Virus record (IMG/VR): IMGVR_UViG_3300032242_000553
Span: 1 to 20,931 of that record
Length of the DNA: 20,931 bases
Origin: a virus
Direction: 5' to 3' (one strand)
Shown here: in pieces, positions 3,664 through 15,957 of the stretch
Position numbering within the stretch: position 1 is the first letter of the stretch
Layout: each line of letters opens with the position of its first letter
Program-made: the position numbers and the translations under genes
The notes under the pieces: model-generated
What the model saw: the letters and a program-made list of their open reading frames with translations, nothing else
Databases searched by the model: none
Told to the model about the DNA's origin: nothing

Positions 3664-4358
3664 TGAAAATTATAAAATATTCAACTGCGTCTACATATAT
3701 TAAAGACGATTTTGTAACTTCTAAATCTCAAATACCACAATGGTATAAAGATATTATTGCAAACAGACCCTTTGCAGAACAAAGCTTAAATCAAGCAACT
3801 GTTAAAAAATGTTTACCTTTTTTTGACGCTTTAACTAACGGTTATATGATACTAACTACACAAGATTTATTATTTACCCAAAATATAGATTCAGAATTTC
3901 TAAACGTACAATGGGCAATAGAGGATACCCCTTCGGTAGTAGTAGATATTCGTCAGCATACTTCTTATTTAACTCCGCCTTTAGGACACTCATCTGCTCA
4001 CGCTGTTTGGCGTATACCTTTTACCTTTAAGACCCCTAAAGGTTGGTCTATTTTGATTACCCACCCATTAAATAGAACAGACTTACCTTTTACTACAACT
4101 TCAGGTATTGTAGATTCTGATAAATTTCCAATGTATCCCGGAGATATTCCTTTTTTTATTAAATCTAATTTCAATGGAATATTACCCGCAGGTACGCCTA
4201 TTGCTCAAATGATTTTTATTAAAAGAGAATCGTGGTATAAAAAGTATTCAGTTAAACTTAACGAAGAAGGTAAATTTACTCGCTTCTTAAATCTAAAAAA
4301 TAATACGTCTTACGGACATTACCGTAAAAATATTTGGCAGCGTAAGGAAGCGGAGTGA
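3663..4358 (+). CDS. DUF6065-like phage protein, AT-rich and probably acquired
   Basis: The 231-residue product contains KKCLPFFDALTNGYMI (about 48-63), a central PFTFKTPKGWSILITHPLNR (about 124-143) and GILPAGTPIAQMIFIKRE. This resembles small proteins of marine and freshwater phages grouped under DUF6065; the family name is from memory and the function unknown. No catalytic motif is obvious. Lines I counted by hand within the gene run at about 22-43% GC, against 55-63% in lines of both neighbours, and AAA, TTT and ATT codons dominate. Together with its tight insertion between two coupled genes, this suggests recent transfer from an AT-rich phage. Confidence 0.6.
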   Translation: MKIIKYSTASTYIKDDFVTSKSQIPQWYKDIIANRPFAEQSLNQATVKKCLPFFDALTNGYMILTTQDLLFTQNIDSEFLNVQWAIEDTPSVVVDIRQHTSYLTPPLGHSSAHAVWRIPFTFKTPKGWSILITHPLNRTDLPFTTTSGIVDSDKFPMYPGDIPFFIKSNFNGILPAGTPIAQMIFIKRESWYKKYSVKLNEEGKFTRFLNLKNNTSYGHYRKNIWQRKEAE

Positions 4359-4900
4359 CTACGATCGTAGCGGTACAAAAAGAGGACGGCGTTTATTTTG
4401 GAGCTGATTCTCTCGTTACTGCCGGTCGAAAATATAACGATCCTCGTATGGTAAAAATTAGCGAGCGCGGAGCTTTTCTTATTGCCGGAAGTGGCGAAAG
4501 TGCGGCTTGCGATATCGCGCAGCATATTTGGGATCCGCCTAAAGTTGGAGTAAACGATAAGAAGGATCTCTACCACTTCGTAATTGCTAAGGTAATACCG
4601 AGCCTAAAAGAGTGTTTTAAGGCGCAGGATTATAAGTGGGAATCAACCGATGACGATACTAAATTTGCTTTCCTTATCGCCGTTGGCGGGGAGGTATTCG
4701 ATATCTCGGAGGACTTCGCCGTATCCTTAACGAGTACCGGGTTCTACGGGGTCGGATCCGGGTCTAGCCTAGCTATCGGAGCGCTAGAAGCCGGGGCTAC
4801 GCTCGAAGAAGCTCTAATAATTGCTAGTAAACACGACCCCTATACCGGGGAGCCTTTTCTATTCTACGAGCAGAAGAAGCCTAATCCTCTTCGTCAATAA
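4355..4900 (+). CDS. Proteasome/HslV-like Ntn hydrolase
   Basis: This 181-residue protein starts with MTTIVAV. Removal of Met would expose Thr1, the nucleophile of proteasome beta and HslV peptidases. Counting from that Thr, Asp17 lies in FGADS and Lys33 in RMVKI, exactly the spacing of the catalytic triad in this family. A later GVGSGSSLAIGALEAG matches the conserved Gly-Ser-Gly region and HDPYTGEPF the C-terminal Asp region. Its length is close to HslV (about 175). No HslU-like ATPase is in the window. It could degrade host proteins, act as a stand-alone ring peptidase, or interfere with the host 20S proteasome that many Actinobacteria have. The GTG start overlaps the previous stop (GTGA). 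Confidence 0.8.
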   Translation: MTTIVAVQKEDGVYFGADSLVTAGRKYNDPRMVKISERGAFLIAGSGESAACDIAQHIWDPPKVGVNDKKDLYHFVIAKVIPSLKECFKAQDYKWESTDDDTKFAFLIAVGGEVFDISEDFAVSLTSTGFYGVGSGSSLAIGALEAGATLEEALIIASKHDPYTGEPFLFYEQKKPNPLRQ

Positions 4901-7197: not shown

Positions 7198-7352
7198 TGG
7201 TCGAGGAAACTACTACTAATAATTTTGCGGAGCCTTTAATTAGAGCGAAAATTTTAGGAGAGCTAGAAGTAGCTTTCCAACACCGCGAAATGGACGAAAG
7301 TGAAAAGATTATCTATGAACGCGCTAAGTCGGTTATCAAGGGTCGGCAGTAA
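7197..7352 (+). CDS. 51-residue helical protein
   Basis: A short frame from ATG 7197 to TAA 7350-7352 encodes MVEETTTNNFAEPLIRAKIL followed by an amphipathic helix ending SVIKGRQ. TAATG overlaps at both ends place it firmly in the operon between the zinc ribbon and the nuclease. It is acidic at the start and basic at the end. No family is recognisable. Confidence 0.6.
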   Translation: MVEETTTNNFAEPLIRAKILGELEVAFQHREMDESEKIIYERAKSVIKGRQ

Positions 7353-8020
7353 TGGATATCAACGGACTACTAACTAAATCCCTTAACGCGTACGACTCTT
7401 CTCGAGATAGATCTAAGCAGGTCGAGATTGGTCCTAGCTCTATCGGCGGTTGCCGTAGGCAGGTTTACCATAAGCTAATCGGTACGCCGGTTACGAACCC
7501 GGATACCGAAGGTCTCGCCGCAATTCTTGGGACTTTTATCCACGCCGGTATCGCGGAAGCTATTACTCGAGAGGATCCGTTTAAGGATAATTTTCTTATC
7601 GAGACGGAAGTAATCTACGGAGGTCTAAAGGGTCACGTAGATCTCTATATTAAAGATCAATGTTTAGTCGTAGATTGGAAAACAACTACGAAGAAGAATC
7701 TACGTAACTTCCCTAGCTACCAACAACGTATGCAGGTACAGGTCTACGGATATCTCTTAGCTATGAACGGGTACGACGTTAAGTACGTATCTCTAGCAGC
7801 GATACCTCGAGACGGCGGTATGAAAGATATCGTCTCGCACGTCGAGCCTTACGATATAGATATAGCTCAAGCCGGATTAGACTGGCTAGAAGAATTAAAG
7901 TTTATCGTCGAGGAGAAGCTCCCCGCTCCCGATCCGGAGAAGTCGGTTATTTTCTGTTCGTCTTACTGCGACTTCTACGACGCGACGGGAGTAGTCGGTT
8001 GCCCGAGTATTCGGAGGTAA
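7352..8020 (+). CDS. Cas4/RecB-like PD-(D/E)XK exonuclease with Fe-S cysteines
   Basis: This 222-residue protein shows the RecB/Cas4 nuclease motifs in order: GTFIHAGI (H64), GLKGHVDL (D97), VVDWKTT (D108, K110) and QVQVYGYLL. Four cysteines sit as in Cas4 and AddB nucleases that hold a 4Fe-4S cluster: C34 in IGGCRRQVYH, then C202, C206 and C217 near the end (FCSSYCDFY, GCPS). It would resect DNA ends to give single strands for the Rad52-like protein encoded at 5187, making a two-component recombination pair. No CRISPR array is present, so an adaptation role is unlikely. It overlaps the WhiB gene by 22 bp. Confidence 0.85.
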   Translation: MDINGLLTKSLNAYDSSRDRSKQVEIGPSSIGGCRRQVYHKLIGTPVTNPDTEGLAAILGTFIHAGIAEAITREDPFKDNFLIETEVIYGGLKGHVDLYIKDQCLVVDWKTTTKKNLRNFPSYQQRMQVQVYGYLLAMNGYDVKYVSLAAIPRDGGMKDIVSHVEPYDIDIAQAGLDWLEELKFIVEEKLPAPDPEKSVIFCSSYCDFYDATGVVGCPSIRR

Positions 8021-8346
8021 AGTGGGATAAGGCTGCTTGCGCCGGCTTCGATACTAACCTTTTCTATAAGATAGAAGAGGATCGTATGAACGTCGTAAAG
8101 CTTCTTAAAATAGATTTCTTTAGAGTCTTATGTACCGGGTGTCCGATATGGAAAGAGTGTCTATCCTACGGTGCGGAGAACGAGAAGTACGGAGTATGGG
8201 GTGGTATGACCTCCCTCGAAAGAGACGCGTTTAAGTACCGCTCCCGTACCTCCTTACAGAATAAAATCCTAAAAGAGTTTAGTATTTTTGGGATCAACGA
8301 AGAACAGGTTAGGGAGGCGTTAGATGAGTATTCGGATAATGTCTGA
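7999..8346 (+). CDS. WhiB-family iron-sulfur transcription factor
   Basis: The 115-residue product has the WhiB signature: C14, C45, C48 and C54 in a C-xn-C-x2-C-x5-C arrangement, and the G-[VI]-W-G-G turn at residues 65-69 (YGVWGGMTSLERD). WhiB proteins bind a 4Fe-4S cluster, partner with the primary sigma factor and control transcription in Actinobacteria. Phage versions (for example WhiBTM4) can repress host whiB2 and block septation or superinfection. The start is TTG 7999 behind GGGAG (7987-7991). The tail beyond residue 80 is longer than in minimal WhiB proteins. The gene overlaps the nuclease and the replication initiator. This is the best host marker in the window. Confidence 0.92.
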   Translation: MPEYSEVKWDKAACAGFDTNLFYKIEEDRMNVVKLLKIDFFRVLCTGCPIWKECLSYGAENEKYGVWGGMTSLERDAFKYRSRTSLQNKILKEFSIFGINEEQVREALDEYSDNV

Positions 8347-9127
8347 CGTATGGCTAGCGGATCTAGGTACGACCGAGAAGATAGTTTTACTCGTTATAGC
8401 CGATCACGCCTCCGATGACGGGGGTAACGCTTGGCCTTCTCAGGCGACGATAGCCCGGAAAGCTTCTCTCTCGATTCGTACTGTTCAGAGGGTTATTAAC
8501 GATTTAGAAGAAGCCGGGTGGCTATGGAAAGACCGCCACGCCGGAGGATCCGAAAATTGCCGGGACGATAGGAGACCTCACCTTTATACGATCTCTCTTG
8601 CGAAGCTACGGGGCGACAACGCGACGGGGCGTAAAGTAGTACGGGGCGACATAGACGACGTGGACGGGGCGACATTGACGACCGTCACGGGGCGACATAC
8701 GCGACCTAAGAACCATACTAATAAACCACCCTTAGATACGTCCTCAGATTTCGATAATTTTTGGAAGCTCTATCCTCGGAAAACAGCAAAGGGTGCGGCG
8801 AAGTCTGCTTACCTAAAAGCTCTAACGAAAGCGGAGGCGGAGGCGATTTATCTCGGAGCCGAAAGATTCGCTAGCGACCCTAACCGGGATCCGGCGTTTA
8901 CTCCTCACGCCTCGACGTGGCTTAATCAGGAGCGTTGGCTAGATGAACCCCTACCACCCCGTAGGCTGACCGTAGAAGAGACGAAAGCTCGAGAGCTAGT
9001 CCTAGCCCGGGAACGCGATCTAAAGGCTCGAGAAGCCTCTCGGAAGGTCGAAGAGGAGCAGGAAAAGGCAAGGTCTCGTGCAGTACCTATGCCAAAAGAA
9101 TTACGGGAGCTTCTTAAGCGTGTCTAA
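8324..9127 (+). CDS. Replication initiator / helix-turn-helix replication protein
   Basis: The 267-residue product has an N-terminal helix-turn-helix domain (about 10-75: TEKIVLLVIADHAS, NAWPSQATIARKASLSIRTV, RVINDLEEAGWL). A low-complexity linker follows (about 92-138), then FWKLYPRKTAKGAAKSAYLK to WLNQERWLDEP (about 145-208), a module shared by many phage replication proteins, and a charged helical tail. The layout is that of lambda O-like initiators, which bind origin repeats and recruit helicase. The linker-coding DNA carries 23-bp spaced repeats that are candidate binding sites. ATG 8324 has GGGAGG at 8312-8317; an in-frame ATG at 8339 is a weaker choice. Confidence 0.78.
   Translation: MSIRIMSDVWLADLGTTEKIVLLVIADHASDDGGNAWPSQATIARKASLSIRTVQRVINDLEEAGWLWKDRHAGGSENCRDDRRPHLYTISLAKLRGDNATGRKVVRGDIDDVDGATLTTVTGRHTRPKNHTNKPPLDTSSDFDNFWKLYPRKTAKGAAKSAYLKALTKAEAEAIYLGAERFASDPNRDPAFTPHASTWLNQERWLDEPLPPRRLTVEETKARELVLARERDLKAREASRKVEEEQEKARSRAVPMPKELRELLKRV
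8608..8709 (+). repeat. Iteron-like repeats, candidate replication origin
   Basis: ACGGGGCGACA occurs at 8608-8618, 8641-8651, 8664-8674 and 8687-8697, and the shorter ACGGGGCG at 8624-8631. The last three units are spaced exactly 23 bp and stay alike beyond the core (CATWGACGAC in the first two). Because 23 is not a multiple of 3, the copies are read in different frames and give unlike peptides (RGDIDD, GATLTT, GRHTRP), so the repeat is kept at DNA level. A more AT-rich stretch follows (about 8710-8745). Position within an initiator gene recalls lambda ori inside O. Confidence 0.7.
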
Positions 9128-9144
9128 CCAAGAATAAATTACTC

Positions 9145-9166
9145 GTAACCGTTACACTTAAGTAAC
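9145..9166 (+). promoter_or_regulatory. Inverted GTAAC repeat, possible operator
   Basis: GTAAC (9145-9149), one C, then GTTAC (9151-9155) form an odd palindrome, and a third GTAAC lies 6 nt on (9162-9166). It sits in the 60-bp gap after the initiator gene, just before the ribosome site at 9178-9183. The layout resembles the ATTAC-C-GTAAT plus GTAAT cluster at 9769-9791. It may be a repressor site or a promoter element. Confidence 0.4.
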
Positions 9167-9187
9167 TTATCCGCAAGGGAGGTGATT

Positions 9188-9385
9188 ATGACTACTTCTA
9201 CTCTTATCCCTACCGACGCTTCTAAGCTTCAAGCCGGAGATCGAATCCTACTTAACTCTAAGTCTTGGATCGTTAAATATATCTCGGAGCCTGATCGGAT
9301 CGGTACTTACGACCTAACCCTTATCGACGATTCCGGTACTCCGGGCGTAGGTATAGTCAATGGGATCGTTACTATTATCGCGTGA
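9188..9385 (+). CDS. Small hypothetical beta-rich protein
   Basis: I place the start at ATG 9188 rather than GTG 9182, because the GTG lies within the GGGAGGTGATT ribosome site that fits the ATG. The 65-residue product reads MTTSTLIPTDASKLQAGDRI followed by strands (LLNSKSWIVKYISEP, TYDLTLIDDSG) and a terminal GIVTIIA. It looks like a small SH3- or OB-like barrel. No family is recognised. It is the first gene after the operator-like repeat and is coupled by GTGA to the RusA-like gene. Confidence 0.6.
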   Translation: MTTSTLIPTDASKLQAGDRILLNSKSWIVKYISEPDRIGTYDLTLIDDSGTPGVGIVNGIVTIIA

Positions 9386-9756
9386 TTAACTTTAGAGCCG
9401 ACGGAGTACCCGTCCCGCAAGGCTCGATGAAAGTTATAAATGGTCACGTAATTCATTCGCAGGGATCGGCGCTTGCGGTTTGGCGCTCGACCGTAGGTCT
9501 CTCTGCCCGTTTAGCCGGGTCTAAACCCGTCTCCGCTCCCGTAGCTATCGAGATCGACTTCTATCTCCCGCGTCCTAAGACGGTTAAAAGGATCTATCCG
9601 ACCGTGCCACCCGACCTAGATAAGCTGATCCGAGCGGTTTTAGACGCTTTAACAGGAATTGTGTACCTAGATGACTCGCAGGTAGTCGAGATTAAAGCTA
9701 CTAAGGCGTACTCCCCGAATCCCGGGGCAGATATCCGACTCCGGAAAATGATCTAA
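9382..9756 (+). CDS. rusA: RusA-like Holliday junction resolvase
   Basis: The 124-residue protein has the RusA pattern: an early VPVPQGSMK, then FYLPRPKTVKR, PDLDKLIRAVLDALTGIVY and LDDSQVVEIKATKAY. The acidic residues D78, D80, D88 and D97/D98 match the metal-binding positions of the family, which cuts four-way junctions symmetrically as a dimer. In phages it resolves recombination and replication intermediates before packaging. The GTG start overlaps the previous stop (GTGA). The length is typical of the family. Confidence 0.85.
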   Translation: MINFRADGVPVPQGSMKVINGHVIHSQGSALAVWRSTVGLSARLAGSKPVSAPVAIEIDFYLPRPKTVKRIYPTVPPDLDKLIRAVLDALTGIVYLDDSQVVEIKATKAYSPNPGADIRLRKMI

Positions 9757-9765
9757 GAGCCTACT

Positions 9766-9798
9766 GGTATTACCGTAATCTATCCCGTAATGTATACC
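9766..9798 (+). promoter_or_regulatory. Repeat-rich intergenic element (GTAAT cluster)
   Basis: ATTAC (9769-9773), C, GTAAT (9775-9779) form an odd palindrome, with another GTAAT at 9787-9791. GGTAT (9766-9770) and ATACC (9794-9798) close an imperfect hairpin around it. CGTAATCTATC (9774-9784) is identical to 5123-5133, and its core TAATCTAT recurs at 12034-12041. All three lie between genes, so a shared promoter or operator is likely. Confidence 0.45.
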
Positions 9799-9840
9799 CC
9801 GTAAGGAAGCGAACGACTCCCTTATAGATAGGTAAATAAA

Positions 9841-10814: not shown

Positions 10815-11089
10815 GCGAACTAAGATCTAATATCTCTTCCGCTAATCGGGAGTACGAGGGTTGGAAGAATTACGCATCGTGGAACGTATCCCTATGGATA
10901 AATAACGAGTACCCGCTTTACCAATCGGCGGTTGCCTTTATGAAGACTTATAAGGGTAAAGCTCCCTATAAAAATTTTATAGCCGGGCAGGGTCTTATTA
11001 ACGATAGGACTCCGGATCGTATTAAGTGGTTGAGCGATCAACTCGACTACTCCGCTCTTAACGAAATGATGAGGGAGATAAATGAATAA
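10811..11089 (+). CDS. DUF7249-like phage protein
   Basis: The 92-residue product has YEGWKNYASWNVSLWINNEY followed by PLY at about residues 15-37. This motif (G-W-x-N-Y-x-[ST]-W-N-V-x-L-W-[IL]-x-N) marks a conserved family of phage proteins of unknown function (DUF7249, from memory) common in phages of many hosts. The rest is helical and ends LNEMMREINE. It starts at TTG 10811 (TTGA overlap), behind a GGAGGTG at 10799-10805. It overlaps the methyltransferase by 8 bp. Confidence 0.7.
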   Translation: MSELRSNISSANREYEGWKNYASWNVSLWINNEYPLYQSAVAFMKTYKGKAPYKNFIAGQGLINDRTPDRIKWLSDQLDYSALNEMMREINE

Positions 11090-11741
11090 GCCAAAGTTAC
11101 TCGATTTATTTTGTAAAGCCGGGGGGGGGTCGATGGGTTACGCTTTAGCCGGTTTTGACGTTACCGGAATAGATATTAAAAGACAAAAGCGCTATCCGTT
11201 TACTTTTATCCAAGCAGATGTATTAGAAGTATTTAAGGATAAAAATTACTTAAAGCAATTTGACGCTATTGCCGCTTCTCCTCCTTGCCAAACTCATAGT
11301 ATTACTCAGCACTTAAGGAATGCTCAAGGTAAATCTACGAGTAAAATAGATTTAATCCCGGAGACCCGAGAAGCTTTAATAGAATCCGGTAAACCTTACA
11401 TAATCGAAAATGTACCCGGCGCTCCTTTAATCGACCCGGTAATTTTATGCGGATCATCTTTTGGCTTAAAAGTACGACGGCATAGACATTTCGAGTCTAA
11501 TATCCCATTAACCGGCTTACCTTGCGACCATAAAAAACAAGGTAGACCCGTAGGAGTTTATGGATCTATGAAAGATGAGATCCCGAAAGGCGGTAAAACC
11601 GCTTCTTCTCTTGAAGAGGCTCGAGAGGCTATGGGTATAGATTGGCAACTATGGGGAGACTTAGTAGAGGCTCTTCCGCCGGCTTATACAGAACACTTAG
11701 GAAAACAACTTATAACTTATTTAGGAGTTAATAATGAGTAA
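11082..11741 (+). CDS. Short phage C5-cytosine DNA methyltransferase
   Basis: The 219-residue protein has motif I LLDLFCKAGGGSMGYALAGF (SAM binding), motif IV SPPCQ with the catalytic Cys, and motif VI IIENVPGA. This is the compact DNA methylase type found in mycobacteriophages, which lacks a separate recognition domain and ends in LPPAYTEHLGKQLI instead of the usual motif X. It would methylate cytosine to protect phage DNA. Three successive GGG glycine codons form a G9 run at 11121-11129 inside motif I, where slippage would cause a frameshift. The gene is AT-richer than its neighbours in lines I counted. It sits in the early region, apart from the second methyltransferase at 14881. Confidence 0.85.
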   Translation: MNKPKLLDLFCKAGGGSMGYALAGFDVTGIDIKRQKRYPFTFIQADVLEVFKDKNYLKQFDAIAASPPCQTHSITQHLRNAQGKSTSKIDLIPETREALIESGKPYIIENVPGAPLIDPVILCGSSFGLKVRRHRHFESNIPLTGLPCDHKKQGRPVGVYGSMKDEIPKGGKTASSLEEAREAMGIDWQLWGDLVEALPPAYTEHLGKQLITYLGVNNE

Positions 11742-14189: not shown

Positions 14190-14884
14190 CGTATAAAGAT
14201 AATATCGTTGCCGGCGATAAATGGAAGTTTGATAGCGAAGTAACAGAAGTATTCGACGAAATGCTCGAGCGCTCGATCCCTGACTATTTAGGTATGCGCC
14301 GTAATACTACGGAGCTAGCCTTAAGATTCGCTCAGCCGGGTACGTCTATCGTCGATCTAGGCTGCTCCCGGGGAACCGGGTTAAGACCGATTATAGATAA
14401 ACTCGGTAAGGCTAATAGTTATATCGGCGTAGAAGTCTCGGAGCCTATGATCGAAGTAGCTAAGGTTAAGATCCCCGAAGCCGAAATAGTAAACCTAGAT
14501 TTAAGAGACGAATACCCTAAAGCTCGAGCTTCGGTAACGCTTTCGATCCTTACGCTCCAATTTGTACCAATCGAGTACCGGCAGAAGATTATCTCTAACG
14601 TCTATAAAAATACGGTAGAGGGCGGAGTATTTCTATTCGTAGAGAAGATTCTCGGATCTGACTCTTACGCTGACGAGCTTCTCGTAAATACTTACCTCGA
14701 CCGTAAAGGCGAGAACGGATATACGCACGAGCAGATCGTAGCTAAGCGCCGAAGCCTAGAAGGAGTCTTAGTCCCGGTTACTAGCGATTGGAACGTAGAT
14801 CTACTTAACCGCGCCGGATTTAAGCACGTCGATTGCTACTGGCGACACTTAAACTTTGCGGCTTGGGTAGGCGTTAAAGAGTGA
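14186..14884 (+). CDS. CmoA-like carboxy-SAM synthase
   Basis: The 232-residue protein matches E. coli CmoA (as recalled) across its length: WKFDSEVTEVFDEMLERSIP against the DWTFDERVAEVFPDM region, RFAQPGTSIVDLGCS (SAM motif I, D57), LTLQFVP (123-128), FLFVEK, ENGYTHEQIVAKRRSLE (177-192) and a C-terminal HLNFAAWVGVK. CmoA converts SAM and prephenate to carboxy-SAM. R188 aligns with E. coli R199, reported to hold the new carboxylate. The usual partner CmoB, which uses carboxy-SAM on tRNA, is absent here. Instead a C5-cytosine DNA methyltransferase follows with a GTGA overlap, so the product is probably supplied to it. A simple SAM methyltransferase is the alternative. Confidence 0.85.
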   Translation: MTYKDNIVAGDKWKFDSEVTEVFDEMLERSIPDYLGMRRNTTELALRFAQPGTSIVDLGCSRGTGLRPIIDKLGKANSYIGVEVSEPMIEVAKVKIPEAEIVNLDLRDEYPKARASVTLSILTLQFVPIEYRQKIISNVYKNTVEGGVFLFVEKILGSDSYADELLVNTYLDRKGENGYTHEQIVAKRRSLEGVLVPVTSDWNVDLLNRAGFKHVDCYWRHLNFAAWVGVKE

Positions 14885-15957
14885 CCTACTCCGTACCCTC
14901 TATGGAGGAGATCGCTAAGGTAAAGGGTACTAACGGCTTTACTATGGTCTCTACCTTCTCCGGGTGCGGCGGATCTTGCCTCGGATTCGAGATGGCAGGG
15001 TTTAACCTTTTATGGGCTAACGAATTTATCGAAGAAGCTCGTACGACTTATAAAGCTAATCACCCGGGCGTAATCTTAACCGGGGAAGATATTAGAGAGA
15101 TAACCGCAGAACGTATCTTAAAAGATACGGGGCTAAAGGTAGGGGAACTCGATCTACTCGAGGGATCTCCTCCTTGCGCTAGCTTCTCGACCGCCGGAGT
15201 ACGCGAAAAGGCGTGGGGTAAAGTAAAGAAGTATTCCGATAGCGTCCAGCAAGCTGACGATCTATTTTTTGAGTATGCGCGCCTAGTAAAAGACCTACAA
15301 CCTAAAGTCTTTATAGCGGAGAACGTAACCGGGCTAGTAAAGGGTAAAGCTATCGGTTATTTTAAGTTAATCCTTAACGAGCTTAAAGAAGCCGGGTACG
15401 AAGTCGAGGTTAAAGTCTTAGACGCTAGCTATCTCGGAGTACCGCAAGCGCGACAACGCGTAATCTTTATCGGAGTACGACAAGACCTCGTAGACTGCTA
15501 CCTCGTTAAACCCGCTTTCCCTAAGCCTCGACCTAAACGCTATACCTTTAATGACGCCGTAGAGACCCTAGAGAAGCCGGTAGACCCTTTTATAGATCCG
15601 GAGACCGGTCACCCGATAGGACTCGGCAACGCCGTAGGAATCGAGTGGGATAAGCTTAAAGACGGCGGACAAAGCACTAAATACTTCCAACTCGTTAAAG
15701 CTTTCGCTAATAAACCCGTAGGGACTATAACCGCTTCAGGAGGGCAAGTAGGACTCGCTTCTATTACTCACCCTAGCGAAAAGCGTAAATTTAATCTTAA
15801 AGAGCTAAGGCGCTTATCTAGCTTCCCTGATGACTTCGAGCTAACCGGTACTTACGTACAAAGGTGGGAACGGATAGGACGTAGCGTCCCTCCTCTTATG
15901 GCTAAAGCTATTGCCGATACGATTCGAGATGAGATACTCCGTAAGGTTACAATGTAA
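14881..15957 (+). CDS. C5-cytosine DNA methyltransferase, probable carboxymethyltransferase
   Basis: The 358-residue enzyme has all core motifs: I (STFSGCGGSCLGFE, 24-37), IV with catalytic C99 (GSPPCASFS), VI (ENV, 147-149), VIII (QARQRVIFIG, 189-198), IX (LRRLSSFPDDFE) and X (RIGRSVPPLMAKAI, 331-344). In motif X the near-invariant Asn of GN[SA]V is Arg (R334). The same position in M.MpeI is N374, and the N374K change was reported by Wang and Kohli (2021, from memory) to allow use of carboxy-SAM and formation of 5-carboxymethylcytosine. Overlap with a CmoA-like gene fits that use. The target site is unknown. Plain 5-methylcytosine formation remains possible. Confidence 0.85.
   Translation: MTYSVPSMEEIAKVKGTNGFTMVSTFSGCGGSCLGFEMAGFNLLWANEFIEEARTTYKANHPGVILTGEDIREITAERILKDTGLKVGELDLLEGSPPCASFSTAGVREKAWGKVKKYSDSVQQADDLFFEYARLVKDLQPKVFIAENVTGLVKGKAIGYFKLILNELKEAGYEVEVKVLDASYLGVPQARQRVIFIGVRQDLVDCYLVKPAFPKPRPKRYTFNDAVETLEKPVDPFIDPETGHPIGLGNAVGIEWDKLKDGGQSTKYFQLVKAFANKPVGTITASGGQVGLASITHPSEKRKFNLKELRRLSSFPDDFELTGTYVQRWERIGRSVPPLMAKAIADTIRDEILRKVTM

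Follow-up and report, generated by a model that had tools for sequence, protein, structure and literature searches.

Repeats in the linker of an HTH_36-type phage initiator gene are probable iterons of an intragenic, lambda-type origin

Replication origins that lie inside the gene for their own initiator are established for phage lambda and the Stx phages (PMC7466680). The same kind of arrangement, with the origin embedded in the gene for the replisome organizer, is described for SPP1 gene 38 and oriL and for ORF20 of phage 80alpha (PMC5499656). In plasmids of the pSK41-type RepA_N group, the origin boxes occupy the central part of rep, which corresponds to the linker of the protein, and are bound by the N-domain, with the C-domain contacting the replication machinery (PMC5703833). 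The origin of rhizobial repABC plasmids lies inside repC, where silent mutations in its AT-rich part abolish replication (PMC3155836), and for the HTH initiator RepA of extrachromosomal mycobacteriophages an origin has been proposed either upstream of the gene or inside it (PMC7157519).

We considered how a replication initiator gene in a 20,931-nucleotide stretch of viral DNA, which we call the window, compares with these systems. The encoded protein matches HTH_36 in Pfam (E 4.2e-18) and, over residues 1-240, the replication initiation protein family phrog_270 (E 1.4e-45). An AlphaFold2 model based on 54 sequences predicts a winged-helix N-domain (residues 3-97, pLDDT about 95) and a helical C-domain (140-267, about 90), joined by a disordered linker (98-139, about 45), and this linker is the part encoded by the repeats that concern us here. 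Fold searches with the N-domain model returned only generic winged helices, MarR-like proteins among them.

What the window has in common with lambda O and its ori, and with the Stx-phage relatives, is the placing of its probable iterons in a mid-gene linker, their spacing of 20-24 bp, an AT-rich side downstream and a dyad-like form of the sites, weak in the window copies (PMC7466680; NC_001416). The two differ in that lambda O carries Phage_rep_O in place of HTH_36, the iteron sequences are unrelated, and lambda is without the GAACCRTCM box discussed below. The Pfam scan gave no Phage_rep_O (PF04492) match for the window protein, whereas lambda O matches at 6e-36; the window protein would work like lambda O but stands outside the O family. 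The likeness to SPP1 and 80alpha, an origin inside the initiator gene, is drawn from their description, and SPP1 differs in having a second, distant site as well (PMC5499656). An origin within the initiator gene, probable in the window, is likewise the point of likeness to repABC; repC is without iterons (PMC3155836). For mycobacteriophage RepA, in contrast to the window, the region examined is described by its authors as without repeated motifs (PMC7157519). The RepA_N N-domain structure 4pql superimposes on the window model with a Z of 8.0 and an rmsd of 4.1 over 88 aligned residues, a match tied with those of many other winged-helix proteins; the pSK41 system differs from the window in being a plasmid replicon, a sequence search of the PDB with the window protein was empty, and a Pfam scan up to E 0.01 found no RepA_N domain in it.

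The initiator gene stands among genes for a single-strand annealing protein, a PD-(D/E)XK exonuclease, WhiB, RusA, SSB, methyltransferases, terminase and portal, and this neighbourhood is the early region of a tailed phage. The WhiB-like regulator (7999-8346), which lies immediately upstream of the initiator gene and overlaps it, suggests an actinobacterial host. Elsewhere in the window, the ORF at 4355-4900 weakly resembles proteasome subunits (PF00227, E 5e-5) and is possibly an Ntn-type hydrolase, the ORF at 11082-11741 contains a C-5 cytosine methyltransferase domain, and that at 14881-15957, judged by eye, resembles a C-5 cytosine methyltransferase.

Table 1. Features of the initiator gene and its candidate origin in the window.
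Feature	Position	Strand	Remarks
Replication initiator gene, 267 aa	8324..9127	+	Pfam HTH_36, phrog_270, AlphaFold2 model
Iteron 1 core ACGGGGCGACA	8608..8618	+	Offset kept in relatives; synonymous codon identity 0.83
Short degenerate iteron ACGGGGCG	8624..8631	+	Full copy in some relatives, e.g. L083, L105
Iteron 2 core	8641..8651	+	23-bp unit 8641-8663
Iteron 3 core	8664..8674	+	23-bp unit 8664-8686
Iteron 4 core	8687..8697	+	Synonymous codon identity 0.87; clear dyad GGGGCG-N7-CGCCCC in relatives
Downstream box 1 AAGAACCATAC	8708..8718	+	9/11 to TAGAACCATCC; same position in relatives
AT-rich stretch adjoining iterons, candidate DNA-unwinding element	8710..8769	+	60% AT; z +1.63 vs synonymous permutations
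Downstream box 2, degenerate ATAAACCACCC	8721..8731	+	7/11; 13 bp after box 1, position matched to relatives
Downstream box 3 TAGATACGTCC	8733..8743	+	8/11

The original prediction described four copies of a repeat and a shorter one within about 90 bp, with a 23-bp spacing that shifts the reading frame so that the encoded peptides differ, and it took the DNA itself to be conserved. All of this holds. The 11-mer ACGGGGCGACA occurs exactly four times on the plus strand (Table 1) with start spacings of 33, 23 and 23 bp, which gives an array of 90 bp at 8608-8697; the 20,931 bases of the window contain no further exact copy elsewhere and none on the minus strand. The copies lie in codon phases 2, 2, 1 and 0, the last three thus in three different frames, and the peptides that they encode are accordingly unlike (RGDI, DGATL, TGRHT). 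When codons were either redrawn or permuted without changing the protein (20,000 shuffles each), the 24 pairs of identical 9-mers in the linker were never approached (mean 0.14-0.17, maximum 7). The 120-bp stretch at 8601 contains 34 repeated 8-mer pairs, against 7 at the next best place in the window. The repeats of the window are conserved as DNA and not as protein.

A search of the phage collection with the window gene at the DNA level gave no match, so the comparisons rest on protein-level relatives and on viral contigs, a search of which with the N-domain yielded 68 loci. The original prediction had turned on whether related phages that keep the protein also keep the repeats, and close relatives, whose N-domains are 65-73% identical to that of the window, do so: copies resembling CGGGGCGACA recur at the same offsets, in all three codon phases, in about 30 distinct genes of the window's group, with two or more of the copies degenerate in some of them (L086, L092, L109). 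Eighteen non-redundant close relatives give the site profile ACGRGGCGACA-N4-CGMC, in which C0, G1 and G6 are invariant in 72 of 72 copies across the three phases. The CGMC that follows the core as a second box makes of the site an imperfect dyad of about 20 bp, with the best axis at +10 in this profile; the symmetry is weak in the window copies, whereas several relatives show it plainly in their last copy. Where amino acids are identical, the same codon is used at a frequency of 0.83 in the first copy and 0.87 in the last; for the N-domain the figure is only 0.36 and for the C-domain 0.44, and no stretch of the N-domain reaches the codon identity of the iteron copies. The copies also resemble one another within a genome, with 1.31 mismatches as against 1.85 when permuted between genomes (0 of 5000 permutations as low), a comparison in which shared ancestry is not fully corrected and some of the picked sites are spurious. 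Such co-variation is exemplified by GGGGCGTCA, present in all four L083 copies, and by GGGGTGACA in L004, L121 and L123. In L092, L093, L098 and L099 several iteron copies have changed jointly to a CGACCCG form, which makes this group well suited to a study of how initiator and site co-evolve.

We extended the comparison to 99 non-redundant initiators, including phage r1t and, as a positive control, lambda O, and counted a gene as passing when the 8-mer repeats of its best 120-bp stretch were equalled or exceeded in at most 2 of 200 within-gene synonymous permutations. Repeats beyond synonymous expectation are present in 94 of the 99, nearly always with the best stretch in the linker, and in only 6 of 172 neighbouring ORFs, several of which are of low complexity; the claim of a lambda-like origin in the linker of the replication protein is strengthened by this difference. 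In lambda, the detected stretch covers four annotated iterons (NC_001416), and the method therefore recovers known iterons. Iteron similarity tracks similarity of the N-domain more closely (partial r 0.44; 0 of 2000 permutations) than that of the C-domain (0.14), as expected if the N-domain reads the iterons, with the reservation that the two are direct neighbours in the gene and that shared ancestry is not fully corrected. Five initiators fail the repeat test; one of these, in Burkholderia phage KS9 (L169), is encoded directly downstream of a DnaB-like helicase gene. The 94 genes that pass include families with a different N-domain, part of whose signal comes from a CCCATA hexamer repeat. Six loci (L011, L013, L014, L024, L030 and L049) combine the same C-domain with another N-domain and a PIPIPIP linker encoded by this hexamer, which also exceeds synonymous expectation there and may represent a further type of repeat for origins inside genes.

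These data bear directly on the notion that the repeats are a feature of the protein, a repetitive disordered linker or a codon bias, and that the DNA has no role of its own. The linker is indeed predicted to be disordered, and in-frame peptide repeats such as SDATVT occur in some relatives. Against this, the copies use three frames, 94 of 99 genes stand out in the synonymous tests, codon identity in the copies is 0.83-0.87, and CGG and GGG belong to the minority codons of this phage. For the window the frame and synonymous tests refute a protein-level origin of the repeats, and in general we consider it almost certainly wrong. Odd peptide repeats in initiator linkers would instead be translated binding sites.

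The original prediction also pointed to AT-rich DNA downstream of the repeats, which is real but modest in the window (Table 1). The stretch at 8724-8773, with 38% GC, is the lowest in GC of all 50-bp stretches of the gene. Across the 94 genes, the 60 bp past the iterons are enriched in AT beyond synonymous choice (mean z 1.25; paired p 6e-6 against the upstream side, where it is 0.40). In 48 of the 94, the 45-mer richest in AT begins at the iteron end, where 12% would be expected.

Judged from sequence, the repeats are very probably iterons, that is, binding sites of the initiator N-domain that form the core of an intragenic, lambda-type origin within the initiator's own gene. For the window array we infer binding, melting, helicase loading and origin activity. 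The winged-helix N-domain would bind four to five sites, each an imperfect dyad of about 20 bp and most of them spaced at 23 bp, and the bound initiator would bend or wrap the DNA. The AT-rich DNA on the C-domain side could then open, and the helicase would be recruited there by the helical C-domain, either by itself or together with a loader. The presence of genes for recombination, RusA and SSB around the initiator gene agrees with an origin here. We suggest that the array lies in the part of the gene that codes for the disordered linker because it must fit inside a reading frame. The window contains no DnaA boxes (TTWTNCACA), and GC skew shows no inflection at 8.6 kb, a measure that is uninformative in a 21-kb fragment of an unisolated phage.

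A winged-helix domain of this shape is common in repressors, as the MarR-like matches illustrate, and the repeats might accordingly be operator sites through which the initiator regulates its own transcription, with the origin elsewhere. However, the sites begin some way into the gene (280-370 bp), no promoter-like site was found in 7300-9800 with a weak promoter and terminator scan, and an origin is favoured by the AT-rich neighbouring DNA, by conservation of the downstream box and by the likeness to the lambda iterons. We regard a purely operator function as unlikely; operator and origin roles could coexist. That the repeats belong to partition, to recombination between modules, to packaging or to some other process acting on DNA is very unlikely. 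Partition sites, too, are marked by arrays of direct repeats, and the linker would be an obvious place for domains to be exchanged, but the array goes together with the winged-helix initiator and sits inside its gene, and lambda O, for which the iterons are experimentally known, gives the same signal. To our knowledge, phage origins have rarely been mapped, and for most environmental phages they have not even been guessed. For one very common class of initiators, the origin may be readable from the gene itself, by looking in the linker. We found no description in the open-access literature of near-universal intragenic arrays in HTH_36 initiators, and the novelty of this observation is uncertain.

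A second element becomes apparent beyond the iterons. Among k-mers compared with synonymous permutations, AGAACC and GAACCA are enriched downstream of the iterons in 27 and 32 of 69 families, respectively, where the maxima of the null were 15 and 19. In the 94 families, 57 copies of GAACCRTC lie close to the iteron end, compared with 0 times in the part of the gene encoding the N-domain and 3 times in that encoding the C-domain, and never on the opposite strand near the iteron end; the synonymous null for this position has a mean of 8.6 and a maximum of 16. All three codon phases are used (34, 9 and 14 times), and the distance from one degenerate box to the next is 10-13 bp in 55 of 60 cases. 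The codons for EPS at the candidate origin are GAA in 100%, CCA or CCG in 94%, with no CCC, and TCA or TCC in 100%, with no TCT, a usage quite unlike that in the rest of the same genes, and in every phase AACCRTC is followed by A or C. This codon choice and the A or C after AACCRTC rule out a preference for AT as the sole cause of the box, and the same codon evidence, together with a spacing of 10-13 bp that is not codon-phased, rules out a protein motif EPSxEPS. The box accompanies N-domains of the HTH_36 type, in 59 of 84 cases as against 1 of 10 for other N-domains. The three degenerate boxes of the window (8708-8743) occupy the positions at which close relatives carry TAGAACCATCC.

Because the boxes are strand-specific, common to families with different iterons and about one helical turn apart, they may be read by a conserved factor. 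We lean, by a small measure, towards a two-part origin in HTH_36-type initiator genes, in which family-specific iterons are followed in AT-rich DNA by shared, strand-specific GAACCRTCM boxes arrayed at intervals of 10-13 bp and read at opening or loading by a conserved factor, either a feature of the initiator or a host replication factor; the version in the window would be a degenerate one. The box itself may act in strand opening or in helicase loading. Searches of the open-access literature found no description of the GAACCRTCM box, which is apparently undescribed. If this model is correct, a box that is constant as DNA while the iterons vary by family would count among origin elements as a new one.

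Viral contigs scanned blind for two successive boxes (GAACCRTCAN{1,4}GAACCRTCA) gave at least 82 hits. Among the matches listed, 64 of 82 fall in an ORF with a winged-helix domain, all of them on the same strand, at a distance of 31-71 codons (5-95%) after that domain, and several of the others are cut by contig ends. Also among the matches listed, 56 of 63 two-box ORFs are HTH_36 by Pfam and 58 of 63 replication initiators by PHROGs, and iteron-like repeats lie upstream in 46 of 46 non-redundant cases. A letter-shuffled control pattern was found in 53 contigs of the whole collection, with 0 of 58 hits in a winged-helix ORF, and in 754 bacterial genomes the two-box pattern occurred 3 times, a frequency close to that of the reversed pattern used as a control. 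One hit lies near the start of a long ORF on the minus strand of L249 (475-2163) in which no winged-helix domain was detected. One of the scanned two-box ORFs encodes a DnaB-type helicase, and this may be the same ORF of L249.
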